NCBI RefSeq assembly: GCF_026391055.1
Contig: NZ_JAPLET010000029.1
Span: 62,001 to 126,000 of the forward strand
DNA length: 64,000 nt
Direction of reading: 5' to 3'
DNA from: Spirosoma sp.
GTDB taxonomy: Bacteria; Bacteroidota; Bacteroidia; Cytophagales; Spirosomataceae
The position numbers were made by a program, and so were the translations under genes. Of the stretch, positions 1-29,686 are shown piece after piece. The notes beneath the pieces were generated by a model. That model made no database searches. It worked only from the letters and a program-made list of their open reading frames with translations, and had not been told where the DNA came from. Within the stretch, counting starts at the first letter, position 1, and the number at the start of each line of letters is the position of its first letter.

Positions 1-2
1 TT

Positions 3-29: not shown

Positions 30-40
30 TACAAAAAAAA

Positions 41-73: not shown

Positions 74-87
74 AAACTACTGGATAA

Positions 88-699
88 TTACAGGATTGCA
101 GGGCGTACACGCTTTGGCAATTCCAAAACCGAACCCCATGTGATCCGACCCGTCCAACCTTCAGTCGGGGTGTCCGTGTTGTTGACAATGCCATGCCAGC
201 TGGAGAATGAGCCAACGACAAATTCTTTAGGACCATACAAGAACGAACCGGCAAGGGGCAAAAATTTAATGATCTTCAGACAGTTCATTTCAATATGCCA
301 CTGGTGGTTGGTAATTGAGTTGTCGTAATCAACAAATTCAATCGACTTGTTGGTTTTCTTGGCGAACTGCAATCCACCGAAGGCTGTCACAAACTCAGGC
401 TCAACACCGGGCTTGGTGGCATCAAATACCTCCCATTTGCGGATGGCGGCATTGCCTGTGTAACCTTCAACTGTTTTTTCGCCGGTCTGCGCTAACCGGG
501 CAACCAGGGCGGTAGTCAGAGCCGCATCTGTTGCCCATTCCGCTGTCGTAAAACCGGGGGCTCCGGATTCCGTAATCAATACCGTGTCAAAGAGGTCCAC
601 GCCAATTTTACGGCAACCGGCTACGGGTATTTCAGGCATTGTCGGATTACAGTCATTGTACTCCGATGGGCAATAAAGCAAAGCACTATTTGTGGCCAT
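88..699 (-). CDS. Phage structural protein, downstream of tape measure (family unknown)
   Basis: This 203-residue protein is the last visible gene of the phage late block, about 50 bases downstream of the tape measure gene. It has no signal peptide, no membrane segment and no motif I recognise. Four cysteines sit near the N-terminus and in the middle. The composition (many Thr, Gly and aromatic residues, short strands) fits a beta-rich virion protein, for example a tail tube, distal tail or baseplate subunit. That is inferred from position only. The ATG at 697-699 is preceded by a degenerate copy of the phage leader motif (TAAAAGTTAAAC at 705-716 on the plus strand), suggesting its own transcription or translation signal. 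A strong terminator follows at 41-73. Confidence 0.7.
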   Translation of the reverse strand: MATNSALLYCPSEYNDCNPTMPEIPVAGCRKIGVDLFDTVLITESGAPGFTTAEWATDAALTTALVARLAQTGEKTVEGYTGNAAIRKWEVFDATKPGVEPEFVTAFGGLQFAKKTNKSIEFVDYDNSITNHQWHIEMNCLKIIKFLPLAGSFLYGPKEFVVGSFSSWHGIVNNTDTPTEGWTGRITWGSVLELPKRVRPAIL

Positions 700-752: not shown

Positions 753-3700
753 TTAAGTGCGACGGTAAACCGTGACGTTTCCATTCTCATCGACCTCACG
801 GATCCGGCCATCAGGGAGTTGAGTGATGGTACTCCCTTTGTTACCCTTTCGGGTTTCATCAATCAGGGTATCGAGCCGGTTGGTTAACCCATCGACCCGT
901 CGGTGCAATTCATAATCCGGACTCGTGGACCGGGATTCATTGTAATTGTGTATCAATAGTAGATCTCGCTCCCGAACACCTTCTGGCAAATCAACCCCGG
1001 TACCATCAAGTAGATAGGCCAAGTCGCTAGTTTCAATTCGCCTACCCAACTTATTGATTTTCGTAAGCGTTTGCTTATTCGGCTGGTAAGACTCCTTCCG
1101 AATAACTCCTTCACCTATCTGCAACCGGGCATCCACTTCATCCGCTTTACGGCCGCCGCTGGTGGTGCGGGCGCGGGCGGTGTCATGCGTAACCTCATCC
1201 CCATCATGGTATTTAGGGAGTGAATGCACTTGGCTTATTGATGAGGCTAATAATGCCAGCATACCCGCAATTTGTACACCTGCTAAAATAAGGCCAAAGG
1301 GGGGCGGGTAGTCTGCAAATGTTCTAATGGTTTTCGCTAAGGCTAATGCCATTTCTGATTCTTGCAGTACGGTATTTAGGGCTATTTGAATGGTTTGATC
1401 ACGGCGTTGAGCCTCAACTGCTTTTTTGCGCTCGGCTTGTAGAGCAGCTTGCTCCTGCTTCTTTAAGGCTAAATTATTGGCCAAACCCTGTTTTGATAAT
1501 TCAAGCTCTACAGCTACTTCGTTTTGTTTAGCTTGTAGTTGAGCGTCGATAGAAGAAATTCGAGCTTGATCGTTGGCAATTTGGGCATCCAATATCTGAT
1601 TAGCGGTGTTTATTGCCATATTGCCAGCCTCAACAAGTTGCTGTTTTACCTCATCGCTAACATCTTTACCTGATGAATCTTTGAAGGTTATATTCAATAG
1701 CTCAAAAATATTTTGGGGGCCGGTTTTCCCTTTCTCCTTAACAGACTTTAATTCTCCCTGTAATTGCTGAATCGTTTCTTTGAATCCCTGAACTGTAGAA
1801 GGATCGGTAAACGGATCCTTCTCCGCTAAAGCGAGTAATTGCCTGTAGTAGTCAAGGCGAATTTTTAACAGGGCTTCGGTGCGACGCTGTTCAAAGTCCT
1901 GCTCGGATTCTCCTGCCTGACGGGTTAACTTTTCCGTTTCCGCTAAGGCATCTTTACGCATCTGCAACTCCAAATCAGCGTACTTCTGTTGGCGGCTTAA
2001 GTTCTCCTTAGCTAGTTTCTCTGAAAAGTCTGCCTTAATTGAACTGGTTAATTTATCCGTATCGTTCTGATAAAGGTCTGGGGATGACTGCGCCCGCATG
2101 CTATCAAAAATAGCTTCGGTCGATTGTGGTAATTTGTAAGCTAAATTATCAACCTTTTCGCGTTTGCCTGTCTTTCGGTTAACGGCATAATAGCCAGTTA
2201 ACTCCTGACCTAGCTTGATTAAGTGAGCGCGGGTTTGCTCAATTTCCTTCAAATCCTGCTGTTGCTTCAATAGCAAATATTCTTTACTGGATTTGTCCAG
2301 ACTATCGAGCCGTTGTTTATCGTAGGTGTCTTGCAGCTTCTGCAATTCATCCTCCAGCTTGGTTTTACTTTTTACCAAATCTTCCCGCTCCTTCTGGGCC
2401 TGCTCCTCCGCCTTAACTTTCGCGCCCGCATCTGACGGTGTGGCGGTGGCGGTTTTTGTTGGCGTAAAGCCCTCGAAAGCCTCCGTAGATAAGCGTGCGC
2501 GCCGGTCCTGTCGGCGTTGGCGCATATTGTCCCGACTAACATATTTATCCATGCTAACGCGCATGTCGTCAAGGGTCTTGCCAAATTCATTTCGATACTC
2601 CTTTAGCCGTTTTCCGGATTCGATCAATTGGCCGTTTAAGGTAGACGCAAGCCCTTTGTTACCTGCTAGCTTGGCGGCTACAAGTTGACCCGCTATAACA
2701 ATGGTGTTGAAGCTCTCAACGAGTTGAGCGGTAATATTGATTGTCAGTACAAATGGATCAATGACGTATTTATTGAAGTAGTAGCCAATCTTTTGCGCCG
2801 TGGTGCCGACATTACCTCCTTCACCATTTAAACTGTTCAGGGAAGTTATCAGGCTACCCACAGAGGTAAACACCTCACCAAACACTTTCGTCAAACCACT
2901 AAAAGCCGGTTGCAACGTTTTCACTAAGTCAATACCCCCTTGAACAATTTTGCTTAGCAAGTCAACAAAGTCATTCAAAACACCGGTATTGCCCTGACCG
3001 ATGGTGCGAAAGAAACCTGCTACTAAATCAGTCAATGTTGAAATCTTACCGCTGAGGCTTTGACCGGCTTCAATCGTTGACCCCTGCACTTTCCCTAATG
3101 CGGAAAAAGCCTGAATCGCTTCGTATGCCCCCTTAACTGAGTTGTCAACCGTTTTCGTGAAGTCACCATAGGCAAGAGTCATCTTATTGCCTTGTGTCTT
3201 TACCGTGAAGCCTAGCTCCTTCCATCGCTCCGAATTATTGGCATCAAGAATAGCTTCGTTTAGCTGCTCAAAATCTTTGTTAATGAAGTTGGCAACGTCA
3301 CCTAATCCAAGTAGCTCTTTTTTGGTCGGAATGATGCCCCGGCTTGCCAGCTTTGCAATGTTGTCAGCCAAGGTGTCAAAAGTGAAGTTAGTTGTATCAG
3401 CCGTGTTTTGAAGAACAGCAAGGTACCCTTCCGCCGCCTCCGCGTTGCCCTCGAAGATTCGCGTAAACTGGTTTTGATAGTGTTGCCCGATGCCGGTTAC
3501 CTCAACAATCGTTTTGCCGATCTCAATAATTTTATCAATAAGAAACAGAATACCCGTTAGCGTGAAAGCGGCCTTGATGGATTGACCAATACGATCAAAC
3601 CCACCCTTTACCCGGTCGGCGGCTTTGGGCGTTTGATCGAGCAGGTAGTTTGTTTCCTTTAGCTTATCTTTTACCCCGGCTATCTCATCAGCGGTTTGTT

Positions 3701-4007
3701 TCCAGTTGCCTCCTTTTGTGGCTTTATCCTGAGTGGAGGCATACTTGATTAGCTCTGACGATAAACGGGAAATCTCCCCTTGCAGTACTTTAGGGTTGGC
3801 GGTGATTTTCTTAAACAGATCACTGCCAGCCCTAAGCTGGGTATTGACTTTATTAAGGTCATCAGCTTGGCCTTTAAATGGATTGTTAGCGGTAGCTTTT
3901 TTTGCTGTTTCCCCTATCTGGTCCCATTCTTGAGCCGCCTTACCCATATTTGACTCAAAGTTCGATAAGTCAAGATTGAGCACTTGGGTAACAACAGTAT
4001 TGTCCAT
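753..4007 (-). CDS. Phage tail tape measure protein
   Basis: This 1084-residue protein sets tail length and is expected to line the tail tube and help DNA entry. It is by far the longest gene of the late block. The N-terminal 120 residues are helical and charged. Hydrophobic stretches lie near residues 145-180 and 920-955, and the region from about 520 to 920 is a long Gln/Glu/Lys/Ala-rich coiled coil, all typical of tape measure proteins. The last 100 residues are polar and may be the processed or baseplate-facing end. Its normal upstream partner, a frameshifted tail assembly chaperone, is found at 10,540-11,300, but about 6.4 kb of foreign-looking DNA separates the two. A copy of the phage leader motif lies 5 bases ahead of the ATG, so the gene can probably be expressed separately. 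Confidence 0.9.
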   Translation of the reverse strand: MDNTVVTQVLNLDLSNFESNMGKAAQEWDQIGETAKKATANNPFKGQADDLNKVNTQLRAGSDLFKKITANPKVLQGEISRLSSELIKYASTQDKATKGGNWKQTADEIAGVKDKLKETNYLLDQTPKAADRVKGGFDRIGQSIKAAFTLTGILFLIDKIIEIGKTIVEVTGIGQHYQNQFTRIFEGNAEAAEGYLAVLQNTADTTNFTFDTLADNIAKLASRGIIPTKKELLGLGDVANFINKDFEQLNEAILDANNSERWKELGFTVKTQGNKMTLAYGDFTKTVDNSVKGAYEAIQAFSALGKVQGSTIEAGQSLSGKISTLTDLVAGFFRTIGQGNTGVLNDFVDLLSKIVQGGIDLVKTLQPAFSGLTKVFGEVFTSVGSLITSLNSLNGEGGNVGTTAQKIGYYFNKYVIDPFVLTINITAQLVESFNTIVIAGQLVAAKLAGNKGLASTLNGQLIESGKRLKEYRNEFGKTLDDMRVSMDKYVSRDNMRQRRQDRRARLSTEAFEGFTPTKTATATPSDAGAKVKAEEQAQKEREDLVKSKTKLEDELQKLQDTYDKQRLDSLDKSSKEYLLLKQQQDLKEIEQTRAHLIKLGQELTGYYAVNRKTGKREKVDNLAYKLPQSTEAIFDSMRAQSSPDLYQNDTDKLTSSIKADFSEKLAKENLSRQQKYADLELQMRKDALAETEKLTRQAGESEQDFEQRRTEALLKIRLDYYRQLLALAEKDPFTDPSTVQGFKETIQQLQGELKSVKEKGKTGPQNIFELLNITFKDSSGKDVSDEVKQQLVEAGNMAINTANQILDAQIANDQARISSIDAQLQAKQNEVAVELELSKQGLANNLALKKQEQAALQAERKKAVEAQRRDQTIQIALNTVLQESEMALALAKTIRTFADYPPPFGLILAGVQIAGMLALLASSISQVHSLPKYHDGDEVTHDTARARTTSGGRKADEVDARLQIGEGVIRKESYQPNKQTLTKINKLGRRIETSDLAYLLDGTGVDLPEGVRERDLLLIHNYNESRSTSPDYELHRRVDGLTNRLDTLIDETRKGNKGSTITQLPDGRIREVDENGNVTVYRRT

Positions 4008-4011
4008 TACT

Positions 4012-4040
4012 TTTTACCGTTTAAAAGTCAAACAATAATA
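4012..4040 (-). promoter_or_regulatory. Repeated phage leader motif, copy A (tape measure)
   Basis: This 29-base stretch, with core ACCGTTTAAAAGTCAAAC on the plus strand, is identical to 16,800-16,828 and nearly the same as 22,944-22,970. On the coding strand it reads ...GTTTGACTTTTAAACGGTAAAA and ends 5 bases before the tape measure ATG. Three copies at the same place relative to start codons imply a phage-specific promoter, regulator site or translation signal. Which of these it is cannot be told from sequence. Confidence 0.7.
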
Positions 4041-4219
4041 CGGACAAAACCATGCATGGGCAAGAAGCTGAATCTTCTCATTTCAACTAATATGTGTACC
4101 TACATAAAATTATACCGCCAAAGAAAAAATAGTTGACTTACGGATAGTGACCGTTATTGTCCTATCTGAGCTTTTGTGTATGATTGTAAGGTATTATTAA
4201 CTGCTATCTACAAAGTAAT

Positions 4220-4600
4220 ATGAGTAAGCATTTACTTATTTTGGTATTATCCCTATTTGGGATTCTAGTTTTAGTCCTTACTAACCCTAGGGAGGAGGAA
4301 CACAAATCGGCTGTAAGGGTTAAAATTAACGCCTTTATGCAACATAAGTTAAAAGAAACAACTTCCAGTTCAGGTGACTCTTTTAGCCAACTAGGACAAG
4401 GCATAGGCTCACTATTTGGCGGTTATGTGGTTGATAAGATTATCGACACAGCCATTACACGGGACAACTATTTAATTTTTTCAATAACAAAGTTCTCGTA
4501 TGAGGGTAATGACAAAGTTATTGGATTGGGGATTTTAGGAAATGTCTTCTTGTCATCAAAGGTAGACGAGGCTTTAGAGGATACACAAAAAGATTCATAA
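4220..4600 (+). CDS. Small membrane-anchored protein, DUF4359-like
   Basis: This 126-residue protein starts with a hydrophobic helix (residues 4-20) followed by an N-P-R segment. A polar linker and a short beta-rich C-terminal half follow, with NYLIFSITKFSYEG near residue 85 and a GLGILGNVF stretch near residue 102. This layout resembles DUF4359 proteins as I remember them, whose role is unknown. It is on the plus strand, opposite to the adjacent endonuclease gene, and ends in a shared terminator. It is very AT-rich compared with the phage structural genes. A cargo or moron role is likely but unproven. Confidence 0.6.
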   Translation: MSKHLLILVLSLFGILVLVLTNPREEEHKSAVRVKINAFMQHKLKETTSSSGDSFSQLGQGIGSLFGGYVVDKIIDTAITRDNYLIFSITKFSYEGNDKVIGLGILGNVFLSSKVDEALEDTQKDS

Positions 4601-4628
4601 AAAAGTGGACTAATATTAGTCCACTTTT
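4601..4628. terminator. Bidirectional intrinsic terminator
   Basis: A perfect 28-base palindrome centred on TAATATTA, with four A on the left and T on the right, sits between two convergent genes (plus-strand stop at 4600, minus-strand stop at 4636). It should terminate both transcripts. Confidence 0.9.
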
Positions 4629-4635
4629 TTATGAA

Positions 4636-5562
4636 TTAAATAAGAATGTGCTTGTAAGTTCTGCCAGTCTTTATTTCACTTACCTTCCTTCTACTTGTCT
4701 GCAACTTTTTACTAATATTGGCGGGCGTTTCCCCTTTTAACAACAATTGCTTTATTGTTTTCACTAAATCATCGGAAAGCTTAGAGGCTTCAAATGCGGT
4801 AATTAAACGCACGGGCAGCACAAAGTCTCTTATTTCAAGATCAGTCAATATAATCGATTGCCAAGCCCTGCCAAGTCTTATTCCATTTACGGTTGCTTTG
4901 CTAACACCTAATGTTTCGACAATTTCCGAGGTCTTCCAATCTTTGACTATAAGGAGCTTGATAGTTCTGGCTACCTGTTCCGTTATTTTGGCATGTCCAC
5001 AACTCTCTCCCTTGGCCTTACCCCTCATTACGTATTTTATACCAGTCAAGTAACTGCGAGATTGTCCCGATTTTACTTGAGATACAAATGACTTAGTAAC
5101 ATTAAGCATATCAGCAACAGCCTTATTCGTTTTGCCCTGAGCAATCAATTGGACGATCTTAAGAACAATATCATCCGAATGCTTAGTATTAGTTGAATAG
5201 CCTTTATTCGTCCCTGCCTGCTCCCTCAAGTTATACCCATATTGCCTGTTGTTTGCTTTATGAGCTTGGATAATATCATTTTCAAATCCTATTAACTTTC
5301 TCTGGAAATTTGACTTGGTATCACTTAAGGGAAATTCTATGACCACTAGAATGTTAAATTGCCAACACTCGGGAGGATATTTATTGTAAGCTGATTGTAA
5401 ATAAATATTAGCATGCTTGTTTCTTTTCAATTTTGACTTGTGAGCTACAAATCTTGAGTATAAATCAATGGTTGATCCAATGTAGCACTTGCCGTTTACA
5501 ATATTTAGAATTTGATAAACACCTGCTACATTGCGATACTCGGAACTGATTTTATTTTTCAT
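4636..5562 (-). CDS. GIY-YIG endonuclease with repeated HTH domains (homing-type)
   Basis: Residues 13-100 form a GIY-YIG nuclease domain: GVYQI at 14, YIGS at 27 and an arginine in LYSRF at about 37. The rest, residues 125-308, contains three copies of a helix-turn-helix segment with shared spacing, for example NKAVADMLNVTKSFVSQVKSG, then TSEIVETLGVSKATVNGIRLG, then PANISKKLQTSRRKVSEIKTG, each ending in a G-R/Q-(S/A/T) tail. Free-standing homing endonucleases of phages have this design, with a nicking or cutting domain followed by sequence-reading repeats. The gene is AT-rich relative to the phage. It lies downstream of the HNH gene, and its target could be the sequence it is inserted in, which is inference. 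Confidence 0.85.
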   Translation of the reverse strand: MKNKISSEYRNVAGVYQILNIVNGKCYIGSTIDLYSRFVAHKSKLKRNKHANIYLQSAYNKYPPECWQFNILVVIEFPLSDTKSNFQRKLIGFENDIIQAHKANNRQYGYNLREQAGTNKGYSTNTKHSDDIVLKIVQLIAQGKTNKAVADMLNVTKSFVSQVKSGQSRSYLTGIKYVMRGKAKGESCGHAKITEQVARTIKLLIVKDWKTSEIVETLGVSKATVNGIRLGRAWQSIILTDLEIRDFVLPVRLITAFEASKLSDDLVKTIKQLLLKGETPANISKKLQTSRRKVSEIKTGRTYKHILI

Positions 5563-5613
5563 GACACATGAGAAAAAGGCGAGATTAACTTTATAGTTAA
5601 CCTCGCTTATTGA

Positions 5614-5967
5614 TTATTGATGTACGGATTTTTTTCGAGACATTTTTGCCTTTTTTCTTAATTGAATGGGATATGAATCAGTCAATTCATGACATGAGCG
5701 ACATAAACAACGACCATTTGCAATGTCCCACAAAACCGGACACATTAAAGCTTGTGCTATCGTTGTGATGTCATTCTCTCGAATGAGAACAGCTAAGCTT
5801 TTAATGTGGTCAGCTTCAATAACCCGTTTTCGACCGTTCCTAGCTCCGCAATGCTGACAGGTAAATCGGTCACGAATAAACACCGCTCTCTTCCAGTCTT
5901 CATACTCGGGTAGCTGACGAATAAGACGAACAAGGGAAGTCTTTTTTAAGAGGGGCTTGCTGTTCAT
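5614..5967 (-). CDS. HNH endonuclease
   Basis: This 117-residue protein has an HNH nuclease core. CQHCG near residue 38 and CRSCH near residue 93 provide the zinc ligands. The catalytic ADHIK lies at about residue 51, and LWDIANGRCLCRSCH completes the beta-beta-alpha-metal fold. The start codon overlaps the antirepressor stop by 4 bases (ATGA), so the two are co-translated. Phage HNH proteins act in packaging, homing or DNA restriction. Here the position in the nested block, not beside the terminase, argues against a packaging role. Confidence 0.85.
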   Translation of the reverse strand: MNSKPLLKKTSLVRLIRQLPEYEDWKRAVFIRDRFTCQHCGARNGRKRVIEADHIKSLAVLIRENDITTIAQALMCPVLWDIANGRCLCRSCHELTDSYPIQLRKKAKMSRKKSVHQ

Positions 5968-6722
5968 AAATCATCTGAGGTATTAAGTTCATTAACAACA
6001 AGCTTGTGCAGGCTATCGAGGTGCCCGTATCGTTCTAGTGTATCAAGCATATTTTCCCCCTCATTTTGCTTAAGGCGATGTACATTGATAGCATAGACTT
6101 CAAATAGCCGCCTGTAGAGGTAATTCCAGGTTTCTCGCCGGTTGTAACCCTGATAATCACAGTAGTCGTCTATTTTACGGTTAATGCGTTGGCGTAATGA
6201 GGGATGAGGTGCGTTCATGCCCGGCAAACCAAGCTGACGACTACCACGCCGAATTTGACGCGGGGCAGTGGCGGAGCGGTCCTCAGACATAATGCGATCC
6301 ACGTCAGCACGTAATTGACTGAGCAACTCCTGTGTTCCGGCCATAAGTTGATTCTGCTGAGCAACTAGCTGAATAAGCACCTGCTCAGTGGTTGGGATAG
6401 GTGATTGGAGTCGTTTTTCGCATTCCAGAAAATATCGCCTCGCCTCCTCGCCCTTTTCCGTTCGGGCTAACATGGAAAGCCGTTTAGCAAAATCCAGCGT
6501 TAGTGCATAATCGACAGAGGGTCTGCCCTTTTCTGTATTTTTCGACATCATGTCGAGAACTTGCCAATCTTCCCCCTCTGTGCTATAAGGATTGTTAATG
6601 ATATTCTTCTTTGACCATCTTGACCACTGTGATTCATCAAGCCCTAAGAAAATATACAATTCGCGGGCTGACACTACGGGCGAACCTTGTCCGCCCGTAG
6701 TGATTTGAATTAGCTCATTCAT
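5964..6722 (-). CDS. Phage antirepressor, AntA/AntB N-terminal and ORF6C-like C-terminal domain
   Basis: Residues 1-110 match the AntA/AntB antirepressor pattern: SARELYIFLGLDESQWSRW near 20, then a GEDWQ segment, DYALTLDFAKRLSMLARTEKGEEARRYF near 72 and an ECEKRL end. A linker with a coiled-coil stretch follows. Residues 180-245 form a helical domain (INRKID...YNRRETWNYLYRRLFEVYAINV) like the ORF6C domain that ends many phage antirepressors. Such proteins bind or displace a phage repressor and trigger induction. Overlaps of 4 bases with the genes on both sides show one tight operon downstream of the integrase. Its target, either the local XRE protein or the host phage repressor, is open. Confidence 0.85.
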   Translation of the reverse strand: MNELIQITTGGQGSPVVSARELYIFLGLDESQWSRWSKKNIINNPYSTEGEDWQVLDMMSKNTEKGRPSVDYALTLDFAKRLSMLARTEKGEEARRYFLECEKRLQSPIPTTEQVLIQLVAQQNQLMAGTQELLSQLRADVDRIMSEDRSATAPRQIRRGSRQLGLPGMNAPHPSLRQRINRKIDDYCDYQGYNRRETWNYLYRRLFEVYAINVHRLKQNEGENMLDTLERYGHLDSLHKLVVNELNTSDDL

Positions 6723-6976
6723 GCTTCAACCGCTTCTGAAAAAATCCATTCTGCTAATACCACAGCATATAGCTCCTCTATGTAGCCGAACCGTTCAGCT
6801 ACACTTATAAGGCTTTCGCCAGCCTGACGCGGGTGTGCATTTAGATTGACACCATACAAAAGCTGCAACCGGCTGTAAACGCGATGCCATACCCGGTAAC
6901 GAGCCTCGCCCGTTGTCTGTGAAATCGTCGTAACGACCGTTACGGCTTTGGCGCGAGTGGTGGTTGGTTTATTCAT
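6719..6976 (-). CDS. Small stand-alone ORF6C-like domain protein
   Basis: With the ATG at 6,976 the protein has 85 residues. Its C-terminal part (RYRVWHRVYSRLQLLYGVN, then GESLISVAERFGYIEELYAVVL) aligns by eye with the end of the neighbouring antirepressor (ETWNYLYRRLFEVYAINV, then GENMLDTLERYGHLDSLHKLVV). It is therefore a free copy of the antirepressor C-terminal domain without the AntA part. It could compete with or regulate the antirepressor, which is inference. It overlaps the genes on both sides by a few bases. A longer start at 7,051 would overlap the upstream gene by 83 bases and was not used. Confidence 0.75.
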   Translation of the reverse strand: MNKPTTTRAKAVTVVTTISQTTGEARYRVWHRVYSRLQLLYGVNLNAHPRQAGESLISVAERFGYIEELYAVVLAEWIFSEAVEA

Positions 6977-7301
6977 GACCTCCACCCCCTTCTTTTGCGC
7001 CTTCCTCTGCCTCGATTTGGAAAGCCTCATACGTATCTCGTAGTCGGGCAAAAAATGAACTCATACTTAAGGCCGTATGCAACTGACTCCTAGTATGCAG
7101 GTCAGCTAAATCAACGTGAGCTTGACTAATCCATGTTGTGAGCATGTCATTAATTGTTGGCACTTGGTTTGGTGCCTCGCATTGAATGGTAATCAATTCG
7201 AGCAAGTGAGTTAAGTGCTCCAATGCTCCCGGATTATCAATAATCTTTTGCCAATAGGCGCGTCGAACGGCAGCCGCCGTTGGGGTTGAGTGATTTTCCA
7301 T
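6969..7301 (-). CDS. Hypothetical protein of the nested block
   Basis: This 110-residue, mainly helical, acidic protein has a Gly-rich end (EEGAKEGGGGHE). It has no membrane segment, no signal peptide and no motif I recognise. It lies 15 bases after the integrase stop and overlaps the next gene by 8 bases, so it belongs to the integrase-antirepressor operon. Size and place would allow a recombination directionality factor or a small regulator, but no HTH pattern supports this. Confidence 0.6.
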   Translation of the reverse strand: MENHSTPTAAAVRRAYWQKIIDNPGALEHLTHLLELITIQCEAPNQVPTINDMLTTWISQAHVDLADLHTRSQLHTALSMSSFFARLRDTYEAFQIEAEEGAKEGGGGHE

Positions 7302-7315
7302 AGCAAGAAAGAGGA

Positions 7316-8623
7316 TTAAGCAACCCGACGAAAGGGCTGATAGGTTACCGTGTTGACATGTCGCTTCTGCATAGCCTTATCGACAGTATGCCCGGTTGTT
7401 TTTACGTAGTATCTTTCTGTAATTGTTACCGAACTATGGCCGAGCATTCGACTAACAGCACCTATATCTTCATACTCTGAATAGAAGATAGCTCCTGCTG
7501 TTTTTCGTCCAATCTTACAGGTCAGGCGACGCTGAAAGCCGATAAGTGTAGCAACGGCATACATTTCACGGTTAATTTCCCAATCCTGCGGAATCTCACT
7601 TGTTGGCCGGGTTGCCAACAGAGACTCTAAAGCGGGCAGCACAGGAATGTGGCACTCAGCAAATGGTGGCTTTGATCGACTAATGACAATCTTCTTATCC
7701 CCCCACTGGTTTGTGCGCTCATACAGAGCTCTGTTCTCCACATACCTTACAGCATCACAATAATCTAATCCAGTCAAAAAAATCACCCCCATCCACCAAC
7801 AAGCAACGCCCGCTTTACCCGGTAGGTCCAATTGCCAAAATCGATTTAAATGCTCATGGTCAAGAAAATAAACGTCTTTTGTTTTATCGCGAGGTAGTTT
7901 TTGATTAGCTAGTGGATTATGCTTTAATCTTCCTGACTCAACTATGTAATTAATCGCTTCAACCAATCGATTTACGTAACGCGTGGCGGCGTCGGCGGAC
8001 ATTGGTCCCGTTTTCATTAACCAACGGTGGTACGACTTAACCCAAAAAACCGTCAACTCGTCAGCAGGTCCAATACTTAACGGCTCATCAACTTGCGTCT
8101 TCGCTATATAAGCCTGCAAATAGGTCAGCCCGTATCCCCACTTATCTAGCGTTGTCTTTTTTAGCTCTTTTTCGGGAAATCCGCCCGACTGTAGCTCATT
8201 CAAATAGGTGGCATAGCAATTAACCGCCGACCACTTTTGTGCTTTAGGGGAATCTTCGAGAGTAAAAGGCTTGCCTGTTTGGTACTCCTCTTTTACGCTT
8301 TTAGGGGTGGGGCTAAATCCCATTGCTACCTGTCGGTCATATACGTCATTGATTTTAGCTCTTGTAGCATCTAAAATACCGTTGAACCTACGAGCTTCAT
8401 TGGAACGATCAACTGCCCTTTGTTGCACCTGATTCCAAGATATGTTAGCTGTCGTTAAGCTAGTGCCATCAGCTAGTGTAGAGAATGCTGACCCCTCATC
8501 TCCATTCACGCTAATACGAATTTGAATGGTTGAGTAGCCTTTCCGCTGACAAAATCGGATGCTGATCGGCAATCTTCTTTTAGTAAGAAGTGTCTTAGGG
8601 GCTGTGGTAGGCAGGTTACGCAT
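7316..8623 (-). CDS. Tyrosine recombinase/integrase of the nested block
   Basis: This 435-residue integrase has an N-terminal arm-binding domain (residues 15-60), a SAM-like core-binding domain (about 130-235) and a catalytic domain (about 250-425). Visible active-site positions are K-I-G-R at 369-372 (arginine II, with Lys at the usual His), LGHSS at 394 and the tyrosine in ERYY at about 405. At the place of arginine I the sequence reads TGLDYCDAV, with Asp for the usual Arg. The same substitution is found in the second integrase at 28,153-29,352, with which this protein shares long identical stretches such as TRYV and KIGRKTAG. Loss of arginine I is known in some Bacteroides integrases (IntDOT). 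It overlaps the upstream gene by 8 bases. Confidence 0.92.
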   Translation of the reverse strand: MRNLPTTAPKTLLTKRRLPISIRFCQRKGYSTIQIRISVNGDEGSAFSTLADGTSLTTANISWNQVQQRAVDRSNEARRFNGILDATRAKINDVYDRQVAMGFSPTPKSVKEEYQTGKPFTLEDSPKAQKWSAVNCYATYLNELQSGGFPEKELKKTTLDKWGYGLTYLQAYIAKTQVDEPLSIGPADELTVFWVKSYHRWLMKTGPMSADAATRYVNRLVEAINYIVESGRLKHNPLANQKLPRDKTKDVYFLDHEHLNRFWQLDLPGKAGVACWWMGVIFLTGLDYCDAVRYVENRALYERTNQWGDKKIVISRSKPPFAECHIPVLPALESLLATRPTSEIPQDWEINREMYAVATLIGFQRRLTCKIGRKTAGAIFYSEYEDIGAVSRMLGHSSVTITERYYVKTTGHTVDKAMQKRHVNTVTYQPFRRVA

Positions 8624-9050
8624 GAGATTGGCCCTCCTTACCTTTTAAAGATGCAATTCGCTCATCATTTAAGGCTGTTACGTTGCAATAGTCCGTGCCG
8701 ATATTAAAATAATCGAACTCGCTATTCAGATTTACCAAGAAACCAATGAGGTTAACGACTGCATCAATGTGAGTTCGTTCGATTTGACGAATGTCCTTCG
8801 CGTTTATTAAATAGAAGTCCAGTAAAGAAACTATTCCCGGTATGGGGTTTTTGCGCTCAAATTGACCTCTCACTAACTCAAGAACCCTGAAAAGGTCATT
8901 CTTTTGTAGGTCATCAGTGGCAACCTTAAGTAAGAAGTCAGAACGCCAATCGTCAGGCAAGGGGTGGTCTTTGGCCGTAGTTTTGGCCGCTTCTGGATTT
9001 GGGATTGCAAAGGAATCCCCTTTCACGTAGTTTTGCTCCGTGTTACACAT
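8616..9050 (-). CDS. Hypothetical protein upstream of integrase
   Basis: This is a soluble 144-residue protein. The first 30 residues are polar and the rest is helical with many Asp, Asn and Leu. No known domain is recognised. Its end overlaps the integrase start by 8 bases, so it is translated with it. About 145 bases upstream is a tandem 19-bp repeat that may be the operator of this operon. Confidence 0.6.
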   Translation of the reverse strand: MCNTEQNYVKGDSFAIPNPEAAKTTAKDHPLPDDWRSDFLLKVATDDLQKNDLFRVLELVRGQFERKNPIPGIVSLLDFYLINAKDIRQIERTHIDAVVNLIGFLVNLNSEFDYFNIGTDYCNVTALNDERIASLKGKEGQSHA

Positions 9051-9193
9051 TTGACTTGGAGGTTAGATTGTTACACATCGCCCATGCAGTAGATTCGCCG
9101 TCTCTGTATGGGCACCTTTTTTTGTTGTCAACTCACTTCATACTTCGCTAGGCAACCCGCTTAGGGTACTGTGTAGCTTTCTTGTGCCTCATT

Positions 9194-9231
9194 GACTTTA
9201 CAAATATCGCAAGACTTTACAAATAATGCAA
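9194..9231. repeat. Tandem 19-bp repeat, operator-like
   Basis: Two adjacent copies of GACTTTACAAATA(TC/AT)GCAA at 9,194-9,212 and 9,213-9,231 differ at two positions. They lie between the XRE gene and the operon beginning at 9,050. They share CAAATA..GCAAG with the repeats at 9,618-9,659 on the other side of the XRE gene, so both may be bound by that regulator. Confidence 0.6.
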
Positions 9232-9248
9232 GTGTAAGGTCAAATTTT

Positions 9249-9461
9249 TTATTTGTCAGTCAGGATTATTTTTAAATCCATACCCATAGCATTAGCAATC
9301 TTGAATAGCACCTCTGTTGACATATTCAATGTGCCACTTTCGTACCGAGCAACTGCCGATTCGGAAACCCCAATTTTTACCCCCAACTCTTTTTGAGTTA
9401 ACCCCTTCCTAATTCTAATCTCCTTAATCTGCTGGCTTATGCTATGCTTAACGCCTTCCAT
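9249..9461 (-). CDS. XRE-family HTH regulator
   Basis: This 70-residue protein consists of one Cro/CI-type helix-turn-helix: IRKGLTQKELGVKIGVSESAVARYESG at residues 18-44, followed by the usual stabilising helices. There is no oligomerisation or peptidase domain, as in small Cro-like or immunity repressors of mobile elements. It is flanked on both sides by direct repeats (9,194-9,231 and 9,618-9,659) that are good operator candidates. It likely controls the integrase-antirepressor operon and itself. Confidence 0.88.
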   Translation of the reverse strand: MEGVKHSISQQIKEIRIRKGLTQKELGVKIGVSESAVARYESGTLNMSTEVLFKIANAMGMDLKIILTDK

Positions 9462-9837
9462 AGTTGCAATTATTTTCTCAAAGGTAGCAGAATGTTGCCA
9501 TATATGTAAAGTAGAAAGATAGCATTTATTTAAAGGTCAGCAATGACTAATGGATTATTTCATGTATATACACGTAATTCGTCAGCTAGCCAGCCAAAAA
9601 TAAAACTGCTCAATACGGATTATCTGCAAATAAATATGCAAGATTATCTGCAAATAAATTTGATTTCATTTGATACCATTTGACCAAATATGTTGTTACT
9701 TTGACAAAGGCAGAACAAAGTTACGCTCAAACATTAGTTCTACAGTAGATCAACAGTTGTTGTGTAGTTGCTAAACAGTTGTCCCTTAGTAGACGAGTAG
9801 TATAAATAACGAAGCTAACCACATCCTCAATTGTATT
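9462..9837. promoter_or_regulatory. Divergent control region of the nested block
   Basis: This 376-base AT-rich stretch without a gene lies between the minus-strand XRE gene and the plus-strand membrane cassette. It holds two 18-bp direct repeats (GATTATCTGCAAATAAAT at 9,618-9,635 and 9,642-9,659, period 24). CATTTGAT/CATTTGAC copies follow at 9,667-9,674 and 9,677-9,684. A pair of AACAGTTGT repeats lies at 9,752-9,760 and 9,774-9,782. The first group resembles repressor operators. The CATTTGA words also occur in the phage control region near 23.84-23.92 kb. Confidence 0.6.
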
Positions 9838-10098
9838 ATGGAAGCGATTGGAAATCTCATAGAACTTGCTGTAAATCATATAGATACGATTGCGACGGCA
9901 ATTGCATTTATTATTGGATTTCAGCTTGCTTATAAGTTGTTTCGCTCATTACTGTCCGATTACAAACGCCGGAATACAGTAGAGTTCAAGCATAAAGACG
10001 CTCCCGAATCAATTACGATTTCTGTTAAGGGTAGTAAAGAGGATGCCAAAAAGCTTGTCGATTATGTAAATCGCTATCATCACTCAACGCCTGCTTAA
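9838..10098 (+). CDS. Small membrane protein with cytoplasmic C-terminal fold
   Basis: This is an 86-residue protein. A hydrophobic helix at residues 16-36 (TIATAIAFIIGFQLAYKLF) is followed by a basic segment (SDYKRRN) and a small alpha/beta part: strands VEFKH and SITISVKG, then a helix, KEDAKKLVDYVNRY. The one-helix-plus-two-strands layout resembles EACC1-like partner proteins of conflict systems, as far as I recall that family. No catalytic motif is present. It is followed 8 bases later by a second membrane gene, and the pair is transcribed away from the XRE gene and ends in a strong terminator. A superinfection-exclusion or signalling role is a guess from position. Confidence 0.65.
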   Translation: MEAIGNLIELAVNHIDTIATAIAFIIGFQLAYKLFRSLLSDYKRRNTVEFKHKDAPESITISVKGSKEDAKKLVDYVNRYHHSTPA

Positions 10099-10106
10099 TA
10101 GTCAGT

Positions 10107-10463
10107 ATGAGTCAAGTTGAATCCGATTCATCAACTGATGGTAATCCCTATAACCAAGCTGGCCTAACCTCTCTGATTATTGGCCTTTGTACTGGACTGA
10201 CCGACGATTCTAAAATACGCAGTACAGTTGCTCTTATTGCCCCCTTTATTAGCTATGCCATCATATATCTAATAAAAGACTGGCGAAAAAAGAACAAGAT
10301 TAAAAAGGCCTGCTTGTCAATTGATAATAATTTAGCCCGTATCAGGACTATCAATCAAAATCAGAATTTACCTGCTAATGAACGAGAAGAGAATGAACGG
10401 GAAATAATTAGGCTCAGTCAGTTGAGAACGAATACGGAGCTTCAACAGTACGATGTAAAATAA
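10107..10463 (+). CDS. Small membrane protein, partner of the preceding gene
   Basis: In this 118-residue protein a polar, Ser/Asp-rich start is followed by a hydrophobic stretch (residues 18-31) and a clear membrane helix at about 42-57 (VALIAPFISYAIIYLI). A very basic segment (KDWRKKNKIKK) and a charged coiled-coil tail (residues 75-115) come next. No family is recognised. Gene order, 8-base spacing and the shared terminator mark it as the second half of a two-gene unit with 9,838-10,098. The cytoplasmic coiled coil suggests oligomerisation. Confidence 0.65.
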   Translation: MSQVESDSSTDGNPYNQAGLTSLIIGLCTGLTDDSKIRSTVALIAPFISYAIIYLIKDWRKKNKIKKACLSIDNNLARIRTINQNQNLPANEREENEREIIRLSQLRTNTELQQYDVK

Positions 10464-10469
10464 CACCTC

Positions 10470-10502
10470 CGCCTCCGCCCAATATAGCGGAGGCGTTTTT
10501 TT
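10470..10502 (+). terminator. Intrinsic terminator of the membrane cassette
   Basis: A perfect 9-bp GC stem (CGCCTCCGC at 10,470-10,478 with GCGGAGGCG at 10,487-10,495) is followed by seven T. It lies 6 bases after the plus-strand stop. It also marks the right end of the block that differs from the phage late genes. Confidence 0.9.
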
Positions 10503-10539
10503 ATAGTAAACTAATAGCCAGTCACTACCCTCGTTTTCC

Positions 10540-11300
10540 TTAAGTTCCTGTGTAACTACCTCGTTCATGTTTCTTGGGTTGTGAAGCCTCTATGCGTTTT
10601 TTCCAGGCCTGGTAATAGAAATAGAAATCAATGGTATCCATAGCTTTTAGTGCTACTACTCCTGATGGGTTACCATCGGACATGGCCGTAAGCAGATCTG
10701 CCCAGTACTGCCGACGTGTGGCAATTTGAGCCTCTATGGTTCCAGGCTCGGTCTGTGGCTTTCGTCGGCCTCGCTGTTTATCGTCTGATCCTGACTCAAA
10801 GACATTTCGGTGATTTCGGAAGAGATTGTCGAGAAATTGGCGACCAAGCCGAGCGCCTGCCTCAAAAAAAAAGCGGAGTCAATCCCTGCGCTTTCCCAGA
10901 TGCCAATTTTCGTGCGCATCACCTGGTCATTAAAATAGCGTCGGTCCTCATCAGGCATGTTTATAAACAGGGCACAGAGCCAAACCGCAAAGGGTCGTTT
11001 GGCGGCAACGTCATTAATAGCTTTCAATGCATTGTAGTTTGTATTGATAAGCGTTGTCATCACCTTTTCCCCCTGGAATGCCCGTTCACACAAATCGATG
11101 TTGTTTCGCAACACCTTAACAAGTTCGGTAAACGATACACCTAGTCCTACCTCAAGCCGAAACCGTTCAAACATGCTAAATCGGTCAATGCTTAATTTAT
11201 CTTCTATCAAAAAAAGTTGGGATTGTGAATTACCAACTTCATCAATCCATCTGCACGTAAATTCAGTGGCAGTGGCGGGTATGTTAACTAGCTCAGTCAT
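10540..11300 (-). CDS. Tail assembly chaperone, made by -1 frameshift (gpG/gpGT type)
   Basis: The zero-frame protein begins at 11,300 (MTELVNIPATA...) and stops at 10,734 after 188 residues. At the run of nine T (minus strand, 10,872-10,864) a -1 slip enters a frame that stays open for about 107 codons to a TAA at 10,540. The extension reads like real protein (FEAGARLGRQFLDNLF, later RRQYWADLLTAMSDG and IDFYFYYQAWKKRIEA). The full product is about 253 residues. Two overlapping chaperones joined by a slip, just ahead of the tape measure gene, are a conserved feature of long-tailed phages. It follows the 133-residue gene with a TAATG overlap. The -1 frame has no good start of its own. A sequencing error in the homopolymer is the main alternative. 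Confidence 0.8.
10864..10872 (-). other. Slippery T9 run, probable programmed -1 frameshift site
   Basis: On the coding strand the site reads GCT TTT TTT TTG AGG in frame 0. After the second TTT a -1 slip gives TTT GAG GCA. A homopolymer of nine T keeps perfect tRNA pairing after slipping. It lies about 145 codons into the chaperone gene, and frame 0 runs about 43 further codons before its stop. Confidence 0.75.
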
Positions 11301-11701
11301 TAGTTGAGGCGGTTTAGCAACCAGGTTGCCAGATAAGACGAAAGGGCAATTAGGTATAGCAGGCCGATGATATTGAACGGTAAAAACAGGAGTCCGACCC
11401 ACAAAGCGAATTGACCTGCAATGCACTTCTCACACGTCAAAATGGGTTTCAGGTAGATTTCAGACCGATCATAAGCCTCCTGCCGTATCGCGCTGAAGGA
11501 TCGGTTGTCATCCGGACTTGGAATGACGCGCATGACGGCTGAATCGGCGTATAATTCACGCAAATGGTACAGGTACCGTGCCCACCAGGCTAATACCTCA
11601 CCGGGCTGGGTAAACCGGAAATAAGCGACTGAAATTTGTGCCAGGATAAACGCCATAGCGGTGTATTCTAAGAACTCAGACAAGGCAAGACTCATCGACA
11701 A
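11300..11701 (-). CDS. Phage membrane-associated protein with CxxC motif
   Basis: This 133-residue protein has a hydrophobic N-terminal stretch (residues 8-28) and a strongly hydrophobic C-terminal third (GLLFLPFNIIGLLYLIALSSYLATWL, about 100-127). Between them lies a polar segment with LTCEKCIAGQ near residue 88. It sits between a tail-completion candidate and the tail chaperone, in the same tight run of overlapping genes. I do not recognise the family. It might be a structural protein with hydrophobic surfaces or a true membrane protein. The start could also be the ATG at 11,695. Confidence 0.7.
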   Translation of the reverse strand: MSMSLALSEFLEYTAMAFILAQISVAYFRFTQPGEVLAWWARYLYHLRELYADSAVMRVIPSPDDNRSFSAIRQEAYDRSEIYLKPILTCEKCIAGQFALWVGLLFLPFNIIGLLYLIALSSYLATWLLNRLN

Positions 11702-12778: not shown

Positions 12779-13773
12779 AGGGTTAAGGTGCCACGGTGCA
12801 TTGTAAGGCCTGGTTGACAGAGGTAACAGCGTTGATCCGGAATGTTGCCGCTCCAGTTCTGGGTAAGCCATGTGATGTACTCACTCATCTTAGCGGTCCA
12901 CTCTGCCTTTTTGGCTTCCAACTCCCCTTCACGGATCTGGGTATAAGGAGACAATTGCCCGTTTTCCAACTGGTCGATGACGTTGAGCCCCGTTTTGTAG
13001 TACAGCATGTACCCGATGGCGGCCGTGTATTGGTTGTTGGCCAGCAAATCACAGACAAGGCCTGTGAAGTCGCATTCGGAGTAGATGTGCAGCAACAGTC
13101 CATGGGCTAAATTGCCATTGATGCTCCTGAGCGGAGTTGCCAGAACGAGGTTCAGATTATAATCCTTGTTGCCGCAATTACAGGACAGCTGGTTGTTGCG
13201 CGGGTAGTATCCACCCAGAAGTGGGTAGGTGATACTATAGGTCGATCCGTCCGTTTCCAGCTTAAGGGGTGTCACATCATAACTGGCGCTATCCAGCATG
13301 GCAACATCCAGCGTCCAGACTCGAATAGGAACACCGTTTTTGCGGACGGTTACCGGTAAGGCATCCACGTTGGCGTTCAGTAACAGGCCAAGGCGGTCGA
13401 TCACCAAACTGCCGCCTTTTAGTACGTTCGTGCGAAACTCAATGCCGGCCGTTGATCCACTGACGCTAACAATGGTTGTTGAGTCGATTTCACCAATCAT
13501 CCGGGAAAACGAACTGAACCGATTTTGAACCCGTCCGCCGATAAAGCCAATGATTTCGGCGGGTAGTTGCAGCATAGCCGCTTCATAGGCATCAATCAAT
13601 GGTGCCCAGTACGTTGCAGGATCCACGCCATTGGATGAGTCTGCATCAGCGAGTAAGCAGGATCCAACCAAATTCCAGACGTAAAGGCCTAAACTTGATT
13701 GGATATCTACTCCGATCGGAAACGAAGTAGGCGGGTTTTTGACAATTCCGACTAGGCCTTTAAGACAATCCAT
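12775..13773 (-). CDS. Phage virion protein next to the capsid gene (connector candidate)
   Basis: This 332-residue protein is encoded directly after the major capsid gene. The N-terminal third is helical and hydrophobic, the middle is beta-rich (SASYDVTPLKLETDGSTYS, then ITYPLLGGYYPRNNQLSC) and the end is helical with a lysine-rich stretch. I recognise no family. The position is where head completion or adaptor proteins are usual. It overlaps the next gene by 4 bases. It lacks a signal peptide and coiled coils. Confidence 0.65.
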   Translation of the reverse strand: MDCLKGLVGIVKNPPTSFPIGVDIQSSLGLYVWNLVGSCLLADADSSNGVDPATYWAPLIDAYEAAMLQLPAEIIGFIGGRVQNRFSSFSRMIGEIDSTTIVSVSGSTAGIEFRTNVLKGGSLVIDRLGLLLNANVDALPVTVRKNGVPIRVWTLDVAMLDSASYDVTPLKLETDGSTYSITYPLLGGYYPRNNQLSCNCGNKDYNLNLVLATPLRSINGNLAHGLLLHIYSECDFTGLVCDLLANNQYTAAIGYMLYYKTGLNVIDQLENGQLSPYTQIREGELEAKKAEWTAKMSEYITWLTQNWSGNIPDQRCYLCQPGLTMHRGTLTL

Positions 13774-28152: not shown

Positions 28153-29352
28153 CTATAAATTATCAGTTTCCTGGTCGACCAATTCTGAAGTGACCTTAAC
28201 GTAATACCGTTCTGTTATGGCAATGCTGGAGTGCCCCAGGATCCGGCTAACAGCACGAATGGTGTACCCTCTGAGCAAAAATATATAACCGGCTGTTTTG
28301 CGGCCGATCTTCAGGGTAAATCGTTCATCAAAGCCAATCAACACCTCCACCCCTCGCATATACGCGTTTATCTCGTCGGCGGTTGGCGGCTCTCCAGCCG
28401 GCGTAAATTCAAGTAATGCCGTTAGCTCTGGCCACACTGGTATTTTGCATTCAGCTTTAGGTGGTTTGCTCCTGCGGATGACAATCGACGGACGTTTGTT
28501 ACCTGGCTTATCGTATGCCTGCCGGTTCTGAACGTACCTGACGGCATCCGGATAGTCTAAGCCAGTAAGCAGAACCAATCCCATCCACCAAATGCACTCA
28601 CCGCCCTTGCCTCGGTTATCCAGCTGCCAAAACTTTCTAAGATGTTCTTTCTCCAGAAAAAACACATCCTTCGTTTTTGCCCGTCCAAATTTGTAATGAG
28701 CCAATGGGTTAAACTCTATGGTTCGATAGTCTACCAAACTGTCCAGGGCATCACTGATCCGCTTTACATACCGAGTGGCCGAATCTGCTGACATTGGCCC
28801 AATCTTCATTAAATGCAGGTGATAATCTTTTGCCCATCCGACACTAACATGCTCGGCCTTTAAATGGGATTCACCTCGGCCTATTAAATATTCTTCCAGG
28901 TAGGTAAGCCCATATTCCCATTTCTCAATGGTACTGCCGGACAACTGGTTTTCCGTGCCTTTATAACTCTGCAACTGGTGGATCTTATCCCGGTAGGCTT
29001 TGAGTAAGGTATTCTGAGGAATGACGGGGAGGGGTGCCAGCTGCTCTGGTTTTTCGCCCCGTTGGTATTCAAGTTGGATCGACTTAGGTGTTGCCGGGAA
29101 ATTTACCGAAAGCTGGCGTTTGTGGATAGCTCTGATATCGCGGTCGATCTGGTTGAGCTGGTCATTGAAATCAATTGCTGCCTGCGTTCTATCGGTCCGC
29201 TTCTGTTTCTTCTGATCCCAAAGACCATCAATTTGAATGGTCTTTTTATTCTTAACCGTTGAAAAGGGTGAACCCTCTACACCATCAACGGTAATACGGA
29301 TCTGTAAGGTAGTGTAGTTTTTCCTTTTGCAAAAGCGTACCGTTATTGGCAT
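28153..29352 (-). CDS. Prophage tyrosine recombinase/integrase
   Basis: This 399-residue enzyme integrates and, with a helper, excises the prophage. It has an arm-binding domain at residues 1-45, a core-binding domain at about 110-215 and a catalytic domain at about 230-395. KIGR at 348-351, LGHSS at 372 and ERYY with the nucleophile at about 383 are visible. The arginine I site reads TGLDYPDAV, with Asp for Arg, as in the second integrase at 7,316-8,623. It lies 260 bases from the tRNA-Asn 3' end, and short repeats in that gap may be arm sites. Confidence 0.93.
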   Translation of the reverse strand: MPITVRFCKRKNYTTLQIRITVDGVEGSPFSTVKNKKTIQIDGLWDQKKQKRTDRTQAAIDFNDQLNQIDRDIRAIHKRQLSVNFPATPKSIQLEYQRGEKPEQLAPLPVIPQNTLLKAYRDKIHQLQSYKGTENQLSGSTIEKWEYGLTYLEEYLIGRGESHLKAEHVSVGWAKDYHLHLMKIGPMSADSATRYVKRISDALDSLVDYRTIEFNPLAHYKFGRAKTKDVFFLEKEHLRKFWQLDNRGKGGECIWWMGLVLLTGLDYPDAVRYVQNRQAYDKPGNKRPSIVIRRSKPPKAECKIPVWPELTALLEFTPAGEPPTADEINAYMRGVEVLIGFDERFTLKIGRKTAGYIFLLRGYTIRAVSRILGHSSIAITERYYVKVTSELVDQETDNL

Positions 29353-29588: not shown

Positions 29589-29612
29589 GTGGTAATAAAA
29601 ACCTTAGTGATG

Positions 29613-29686
29613 CTCCCGAAGCTGGGCTCGAACCAGCGACCCTCTGATTAACAGTCAGATGCTCTAACCGACTGAGCTATTCGGGA
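29613..29686 (-). tRNA. tRNA-Asn (anticodon GTT)
   Basis: The minus strand folds into a full cloverleaf of 74 bases. The acceptor stem is TCCCGAA/TTCGGGA, the D arm is GCTC..GAGC, the anticodon arm TCTGA-CTGTTAA-TCAGA has anticodon GTT, and the T arm is GCTGG-TTCGAGC-CCAGC. CCA is not encoded. Its 3' end faces the prophage integrase and is the likely attachment site. Confidence 0.97.

Follow-up and report, generated by a model that had tools for sequence, protein, structure and literature searches.

A putative composite regulatory and homing cassette at the 5′ end of the tape measure gene of a Spirosoma prophage

Here we describe a 6.5-kb block of eight minus-strand and three plus-strand genes that stands between the tail assembly chaperone gene and the tape measure protein (TMP) gene of a prophage in Spirosoma sp. 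The window, by which we mean the whole stretch of DNA that was analysed, spans 64,000 nucleotides of an 8 Mb genome (assembly GCF_026391055.1, contig NZ_JAPLET010000029.1, labelled C24 here, so that the window is C24:62001-126000), and positions given without a prefix are those of the window. Read in the direction of their transcription, the minus-strand genes encode an XRE-type regulator, a protein to which we give the label MxTEQxY after its start, a tyrosine recombinase, two proteins of 110 amino acids, an AntA-type antirepressor, an HNH endonuclease and a GIY-YIG endonuclease, and a conserved hairpin leader separates the XRE gene from the MxTEQxY gene. The plus-strand genes, which we treat as cargo, encode a DUF4359 protein and two small proteins with hydrophobic stretches. 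A preliminary description of this DNA, made from its letters alone, had listed an integrase, an XRE regulator, an antirepressor, HNH and GIY-YIG genes and plus-strand genes between the chaperone and the TMP, and both the content and the order were borne out (Table 1). Our preferred view of the block is that it belongs to a widespread family of regulatory and homing cassettes.

The prophage and the block

The prophage measures about 60.5 kb and runs from C24:31063 to the tRNA-Asn gene at 29,612-29,686, with its head and tail genes on the minus strand. PHROGs names the terminase (6.3e-38), the TMP and, weakly, the portal (7.5e-4); the capsid and chaperone genes receive no PHROGs name (the chaperone gene called at 10734-11426 has no PHROG match), and their labels are our own, taken from gene order. 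The GC content of the block is 0.414, against 0.461 in the TMP, 0.491 in the head and tail genes and 0.518 in the host part of the sequence.

Relatives were sought in 198 related genomes (labelled G and a number), in which the TMP was matched in 35 and the portal in 4, both counts including the source genome, and 60 loci (labelled L and a number) were fetched, against which the prophage proteins were compared. A TMP search of genome_contigs returned Spirosoma validum as its sole match, the nearest named relative by TMP, and no other gene from the head-tail region of the window prophage was recognised alongside the TMP there. Scans of viral_contigs with the capsid and the integrase found no relatives; in the set named 'phages' the integrase had a single match, at 20%, and the TMP matched 11 records, which are distant. 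A search of the literature, in which few subscription journals were covered, found no Spirosoma prophage cassette of this kind.

Table 1. Features of the block and of the flanking prophage, in window positions
Feature	Position	Strand	Evidence
TMP, neighbour of the insertion	753..4007	-	phrog_5062 tail length tape measure, 1.5e-18
Leader motif of the TMP, promoter-like	4012..4041	-	TTG-N20-TATTATTG, then a conserved 5′ stretch
DUF4359 protein, cargo	4220..4600	+	PF14271, 3.7e-8; in L087 a 45% homologue adjoins an XRE-INT-INT cassette
Terminator-like perfect palindrome of 44 bp, between the genes for DUF4359 and GIY-YIG	4593..4636	.	z about -10
GIY-YIG endonuclease with helix-turn-helix repeats	4636..5562	-	PF01541, 4.6e-9; phrog_7168 homing endonuclease, 3.6e-23
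HNH endonuclease	5614..5967	-	phrog_5956, 6.4e-9; Pfam below cut-off (1.1e-3, 2e-3); 65% homologue in L084
AntA-type antirepressor	5964..6722	-	PF08346, 2.1e-17; 58-60% homologues in L084/G006
110-aa gene, weakly like the AntA C-terminus	6719..7051	-	25% over AntA residues 158-245, E 1.4e-5
110-aa gene, like the C-terminal part of an MxTEQxY protein	6969..7301	-	37% to L144 5706-5981
Tyrosine recombinase	7316..8623	-	Phage_int_SAM_5, 2.8e-6; phrog_1, 9.5e-13; 48% to the prophage's own integrase
144-aa MxTEQxY gene, start MCNTEQNYVKG	8616..9050	-	start shared by relatives
Conserved leader with covarying hairpin, between the XRE and MxTEQxY genes	9050..9199	-	model R1, 77.6 bits (R1 training sequence)
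Promoter/operator region with a tandem 19-bp repeat	9194..9249	-	repeat scan, alignment
XRE-type regulator, 70 aa	9249..9461	-	HTH_3 PF01381, 2.5e-15
Two 21-bp direct repeats, operator-like, between the divergent XRE and 86-aa genes	9618..9662	.	repeat scan
86-aa cargo protein, hydrophobic stretch by eye	9838..10098	+	no family match
118-aa cargo protein, hydrophobic stretch by eye	10107..10463	+	no family match
Intrinsic terminator, 3′ of the plus-strand cargo	10470..10495	+	terminator prediction
Probable start stub of an older TMP, MNEVVTQELK	10539..10568 (ATG 10,568)	-	similarity to the TMP start MDNTVVTQVL
Tail assembly chaperone, read in two frames that meet at a T9 run (10864-10872)	10540..11300 (5′ limit approximate)	-	position, frames, T9 run
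Prophage's own integrase, beside tRNA-Asn	28153..29352	-	family match, position
3′ end of tRNA-Asn, 16 bp, repeated at C24:31063 (prophage ends)	29611..29626	.	repeat match

The empty joint and the edges of the block

The joint between the chaperone and the TMP was recognisable in four related prophages (G007, G027, G063 and G052), and in all four the block is absent. Two bases separate the chaperone stop from the TMP start in G007 and G027, the two genes overlap in G063, and the joint of G052, about 315 bp long, contains one frame of 101 amino acids; the remaining TMP loci were left unjudged, the chaperone not being recognised there. Because the joint is empty in every recognised relative, the reading of the block as an insertion of about 4,008-10,540 at the chaperone-TMP joint is well supported. 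The preliminary description had proposed just such an insertion into a gap of a phage operon, and the low GC content of the block is a further point in its favour. Neither of the two outcomes that, by the preliminary description, would have spoken against its reading was obtained: empty versions of this gene order exist, and relatives of the block genes stand beside other TMP and capsid lineages.

We label the gene upstream of the block a chaperone from its position before the TMP, its two frames and the run of nine T residues at the frame change. This run is exact and occupies the corresponding position in four relatives, and no other A/T run in the window reaches nine. Compared with its usual end, the C-terminus of the chaperone in the window is altered after ..WKKR. 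At this edge of the block, the ATG at 10,568 on the minus strand is a probable leftover start of an older TMP. The peptide that it opens scores 25 against the present TMP start, at the top of 2016 ATG peptides in the window (the TMP's own excluded), and it is also the best of 1899 ATG peptides across the prophage, where the next scores 22. Where the stub and the TMP start both encode VVTQ and L, their codons differ for the most part in the third base, and the two starts have only about 5 consecutive identical bases. The claim that no phage gene is broken is right only in part: the present TMP is complete, the end of the chaperone is altered, and beside it lies the likely start of an older TMP.

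When remnants were sought of the starts of tail58, of the 16,788 gene and of the gene at 88-699, none was accepted, and no long direct repeat was found at the ends of the block. The 8-mer AACTAATA, present at both ends and offered earlier as a weak core candidate, was rejected as the core of an attachment (att) site, since two 8-mers are common to the end regions where 0.8 would be expected, which is chance level. The idea that the block ends carry a copy of the att sequence of tRNA-Asn was likewise examined and rejected.

The module in related genomes

Relatives of the AntA protein occur in 33 of the 198 genomes, the source genome included. At the 26 AntA loci that were fetched, XRE was found in 21, HNH in 12 and GIY-YIG in 8 (E 1e-4), and five loci carry all four around one AntA: L138, L142, L144 and L158 in the window order XRE-AntA-HNH-GIY-YIG, and L141 with the two nucleases swapped. 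Judged by gene order and similarity, these loci show the core of XRE, hairpin leader, MxTEQxY, AntA, HNH and GIY-YIG to be a repeated module of this bacterial family, many copies of which are incomplete. AntA modules also exist without an integrase of the block type, so this integrase does not define the module. No second phage with the whole block was met in searches of the 198 genomes with the integrase, TMP, portal and AntA.

The module often stands close to a tape measure gene. A TMP lies within 8 kb at 10 of 23 AntA-selected and at 8 of 22 leader-selected places (18/45, or 17/43 unique places, as L155 = L196 and L157 = L192 were fetched twice), the 22 having been chosen from 108. The TMP queries behind these counts include TMPs from some of the same loci, and L149, L151 and L156, which have no aligned leader, were measured from base 10,000. 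By contrast, among 16 integrase-selected loci (L083-L098) only L097 matches the window TMP. The TMPs beside AntA modules have differing best PHROG families, and further copies of the module adjoin capsid or other virion genes.

A stub of the TMP start is present in three of the five places where a cassette stands before a TMP, namely in the window, L140 and L142. At L140 (G100) the first 19 codons of the TMP, together with the preceding 176 bp, are repeated (87%) across a 10-kb insertion that bears the module. At L142 (G014) the stub shares 57% of the 60 residues that were compared (E 6e-19; about 80 codons by eye) and lies 19 kb upstream of the TMP, directly 3′ of a co-oriented gene of 210 amino acids, with module and cargo between. 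When 39 TMP loci without AntA were searched for stubs, five matches were obtained, of which two are the TMP's own start and three are apparently inside the TMP. Long direct repeats on both sides of the AntA core were seen at 6 of the 26 loci, compared with 1 of 47 in the controls (Fisher p 0.007), and two of these six loci (L137 and L150) contain two cassettes.

Several other arrangements of such cassettes were noted. The window prophage itself has a second insert between tail genes, at C24:59,748-62,088 (L007 17,748-20,000 plus window 1-88), with genes for an AntA protein (C24:61253-62014; 49% to the block AntA), an 89-aa protein and a secreted-looking 244-aa protein; its DNA matches in parts, at 73-83% identity, a stretch near a TMP in G007 (L135), and no hairpin leader was found near this second AntA. 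At L155/L156 (G050:C12) two cassettes, 88% identical over the 2.66 kb compared, lie inverted about 26 kb apart and flank one TMP. At L150 (G010:C1) tandem TMP genes are each followed by an XRE-MxTEQxY-AntA cassette, the two cassettes being 94% identical over 650 bp. At L144 (G034:C7) positions 1-319 and 13259-13577 form a 96% direct repeat of a gene end, without a PHROG match, around a 13-kb insert that carries the module and Mrr/RES-type cargo, and a tRNA lies just beyond. Finally, G006:C1 (L083, L084, L148 and L149) has four dispersed AntA-type cassettes that share a second integrase, at about 85-95% DNA identity.

The conserved leader

The leader is laid out as a promoter-like part with a palindrome that is specific to each copy (by eye), an optional segment present in 21 of 32 sequences, and a hairpin of the form CCCCxxCGCT..AGCGxxGGGG. 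Its alignment covers 32 of 33 XRE places, L096 being left out, and at 27 of the 33 the gene after the leader begins with the MxTEQxY start. Within the hairpin, 17 cells are changed on both sides, against 6.0 ± 1.7 in shuffled alignments, and 0 of 500 shuffles scored as high, although kinship among the sequences can beat such shuffles even where there is no structure; versions of the hairpin slid along the alignment give at most 6 such cells.

A model of the leader finds at least 108 places in 37 of the 198 genomes, 26 of them from the same genus and 11 from the family, with up to 15 candidates scored per genome (a number that one genome reaches) and with the 32 training sequences matching by construction. 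Among the 198 genomes, the model finds the leader in none outside the family of Spirosoma. Rfam returned no match at its thresholds, the weak matches listed falling under their gathering scores, and the C4 and isrK families of Rfam do not match it either. The leader offers a simple sequence handle by which such cassettes can be mapped. A segment around GGTTGCCCGCT, upstream of the hairpin in 21 of the 32 copies, could by eye compete for its right arm in an attenuator-like manner.

The integrase

A tree of 22 sequences places the integrase of the block, its tyrosine recombinase, as sister to that of the prophage itself, with a support of 0.999. The two are 48% identical, and the next-best match in the 198 genomes reaches 42%. 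In the alignment of the family, from which L088 was left out for a stop in its translation, the Arg I position is occupied by Asp (D287) in all 11 members, and R316-x-K318, K370 (at the usual position of His), R373, H396 and Y406 are invariant. Because Asp stands at Arg I throughout while the other catalytic residues do not vary, the family is, on this alignment, a coherent subfamily and not a decayed enzyme.

Cassettes of the order XRE-leader-MxTEQxY-integrase, with or without a second integrase and without AntA, occur in several genomes, for example at L085, L087 and L097. The block looks like a fusion of two modules, one of the AntA and nuclease type and one of the recombinase type, with genes of the MxTEQxY type flanking its integrase on both sides. 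The integrase itself lies in the middle of the block and not near an end of the element.

The leader motif of the TMP

The TMP was earlier thought to keep its own leader motif. The motif does stand before it, at 4,012-4,041, and is not unique to it, as copies precede two more genes of the prophage: an exact copy of the 30-mer lies before tail58 (C24:59758), and one with a single mismatch before the 16,788 gene (16,800-16,829; C24:78800). With a partial copy at C24:60603, all are on the minus strand and all inside this prophage. Searched as a 24-base pattern with up to 3 mismatches, the motif appears four times in its own genome and, among 148 other genomes, once each in two, both times with 3 mismatches.

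The motif reads TTG-N19/20-TATTATTG, followed by a conserved stretch. Promoters of Bacteroidota have the layout TTG/TAnnTTTG, and we take the motif as a promoter with a 5′ untranslated region and as a candidate replacement promoter. In three of the four empty relatives the space before the TMP is too short to contain it, and in G052 the 101-aa frame lies there. An ancestral TMP leader was rejected on the ground of those three relatives; the motif probably arrived with the insertion.

Cargo genes

The plus-strand genes end at the terminator at 10,470-10,495 and at the 44-bp palindrome, and DUF4359 is the only one named among the cargo of the window. Seven cargo proteins of relatives were picked by hand; four match putAbiC, Mrr, RES or a GHKL ATPase, one matches an acetyltransferase and two are unmatched, while one further relative's cargo protein has DUF4062. 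This hand-picked, non-random sample suggests anti-phage roles for some of the relatives' cargo.

Discussion

We consider it somewhat more probable than its opposite, at about 0.58, that the block is a composite mobile regulatory and homing cassette, not autonomous, which entered the 5′ end of the TMP gene and supplied a new start and promoter. The cassette would have entered an earlier TMP gene at its 5′ end, leaving the first ten codons behind, and would have supplied an intact TMP start together with a promoter, allowing the phage to go on making its tail. The XRE protein would repress transcription of the minus-strand operon at the promoter that precedes the leader, with autorepression through the variable palindrome; upon release at induction the operon would make AntA, which would lift a repressor. 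The HNH and GIY-YIG nucleases would then cut TMP regions that lack the cassette, in co-infecting or co-resident phages, and repair of the cut would copy the cassette together with the adjoining TMP end. The plus-strand cargo, with its own terminator, would be expressed in the lysogen, possibly for superinfection exclusion, and the recombinase may offer a second way to move.

Such a cassette joins homing nucleases, lysogeny regulators (XRE and AntA) and accessory cargo in one module, often beside the same essential phage gene. If the promoter replacement is true, it would explain how inserts of 6 to 19 kb are tolerated in a late operon, and why their loss would be difficult. More tentatively, and as less likely than not, we put forward that the Spirosoma family has a class of mobile elements, XRE, structured leader RNA and MxTEQxY cassettes specialised on the TMP, which cut their way in, replace the TMP end and promoter and so make tail formation dependent on the cassette, with defence cargo and with interchangeable recombinase, antirepressor and nuclease modules.

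A number of observations weigh against the homing cassette. No closely similar phage lacking the block was met, and the four empty relatives all stand far off, with TMPs about 24-30% identical. The stub in the window is about 10 codons long, and among the window ATG peptides its score of 25 is followed by a runner-up at 24; at L138 the stub is weak (E 0.31) and at L145 there is none, and the stub lengths vary (about 10, 19 and 80 codons), contrary to one fixed site. At the protein level, duplicated gene ends were obtained in 5 of 29 cases, compared with 3 of 47 among the controls, which is no clear excess, and the counts of nearness to the TMP stand without a matched random baseline. For the hairpin, two of five covariation measures are not clearly above shuffles (169 and 58 of 500), and on its own RNAalifold gives 6 of 10 stem pairs with a small covariation term. 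The cargo in the window matches no defence family in PADLOC.

Other histories of the block have to be considered. Elements that target the 5′ ends of genes bring a replacement end and promoter, as SXT does in prfC, and the recombinase could in the same way have integrated a circular element site-specifically into the TMP 5′ end and supplied its replacement. An intact recombinase with catalytic residues invariant in its 11 members, the recurrence of a short part of the TMP start at either side, with its mostly third-position differences, and a candidate replacement promoter would all fit; yet the cassettes of L140 and L142 have stubs where no relative of this integrase was found, long direct repeats are missing from the block ends, and the few identical bases in a row shared by the two TMP starts also speak against it, and we hold this course to be unlikely. 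Ordinary mosaicism, which would have joined the remnant of a second, related prophage's lysogeny region to this one without any mobility of its own, strikes us as rather doubtful. It would account for the sister relation of the two integrases (48%, support 0.999) and for the presence of regulators and an integrase, which are typical lysogeny genes, and the stubs are compatible with an exchange of segments between phages; it accords less well with a leader at 108 or more places, at least 15 of them in one genome, and with AntA modules beside different phage backbones.

The preliminary description saw in the block a satellite-like or parasitic element, and a phage satellite of the kind of helper-embedded phage-inducible chromosomal islands (HE-PICIs), riding inside its helper, would suit an integrase and a gene of the Bro network (AntA) inside a prophage late region, as excerpts of PMC10111431 describe, and core genes co-oriented with the late genes. 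Among the block proteins scanned, however, there is no AlpA, primase or captured late gene and no gene for replication or packaging, no late gene is interrupted in the manner of HE-PICIs, and no att identity block was found; with none of these features in what was scanned, a satellite has become highly unlikely. Least probable of all is an ancestral regulatory region lost by four relatives. Only four relatives have a recognisable joint, which leaves some room for it, but four losses that each restored the tight coupling of chaperone and TMP are less likely, and the lower GC content of the block and the TMP-start stub also speak against it.

Comparison with known systems

The homing cassette that we prefer has partial counterparts elsewhere. 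Excerpts of published accounts place GIY-YIG and HNH homing genes of phage T4 in intergenic positions, where promoters of the downstream essential gene can sit in or behind the insert (PMC2988022), and describe homing endonuclease genes as often lying in or near essential genes, the TMP being among those often interrupted (PMC10448857). With the seg and mob genes of T4 and with islands of homing endonuclease genes, the block shares intergenic GIY-YIG and HNH genes beside an essential gene; it differs in that its endonucleases stand in a row with XRE, AntA, the leader, sometimes a tyrosine recombinase, and divergent cargo, in a prophage of Bacteroidota. As in an intergenic homing cassette, its GIY-YIG and HNH genes lie outside any intron or intein and are absent from all four recognised joints. 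Copying of flanking DNA along with such a cassette may be reflected in the TMP stubs and flanking repeats of some loci, the protein comparison of duplicated gene ends giving no clear excess. The nearest nested elements are HE-PICIs, which according to excerpts of PMC10111431 likewise have an integrase and a Bro-network protein inside a prophage late region, and one of which, 11capE, comes with a copy of its target gene. The block differs from them in the absence of a primase, AlpA and att block from the scans, in its complete TMP and in a recombinase of Bacteroidota type without Arg I.

For the recombinase, the closest likeness is with the IntCTnDOT integrases, in which, in excerpts of PMC8138268, Arg I is weakly conserved and, in the integrase of CTnDOT, replaced by an arginine further along. 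Both groups belong to Bacteroidota, and the block family, judged by its residues, is like the IntCTnDOT integrases in having Arg I replaced with the other catalytic residues kept; it differs by its Asp at box I in 11 of 11 aligned members. Phage P1 has the layout c4-icd-ant, and the c4 and CI RNAs of P1 and P4 share with the block a structured leader upstream of a small gene and of a gene for an antirepressor. Control of ant/Bro genes by CI/seqA RNA is described in excerpts of PMC10111431. The block leader differs from c4 RNA in having no C4 match in Rfam and in being preceded by an XRE gene. Morons are cargo genes in a late operon, oriented opposite to it and with their own terminator. The cargo of the block shares this orientation and has its own terminator, and differs from a moron in being attached to a mobile-looking regulatory cassette.

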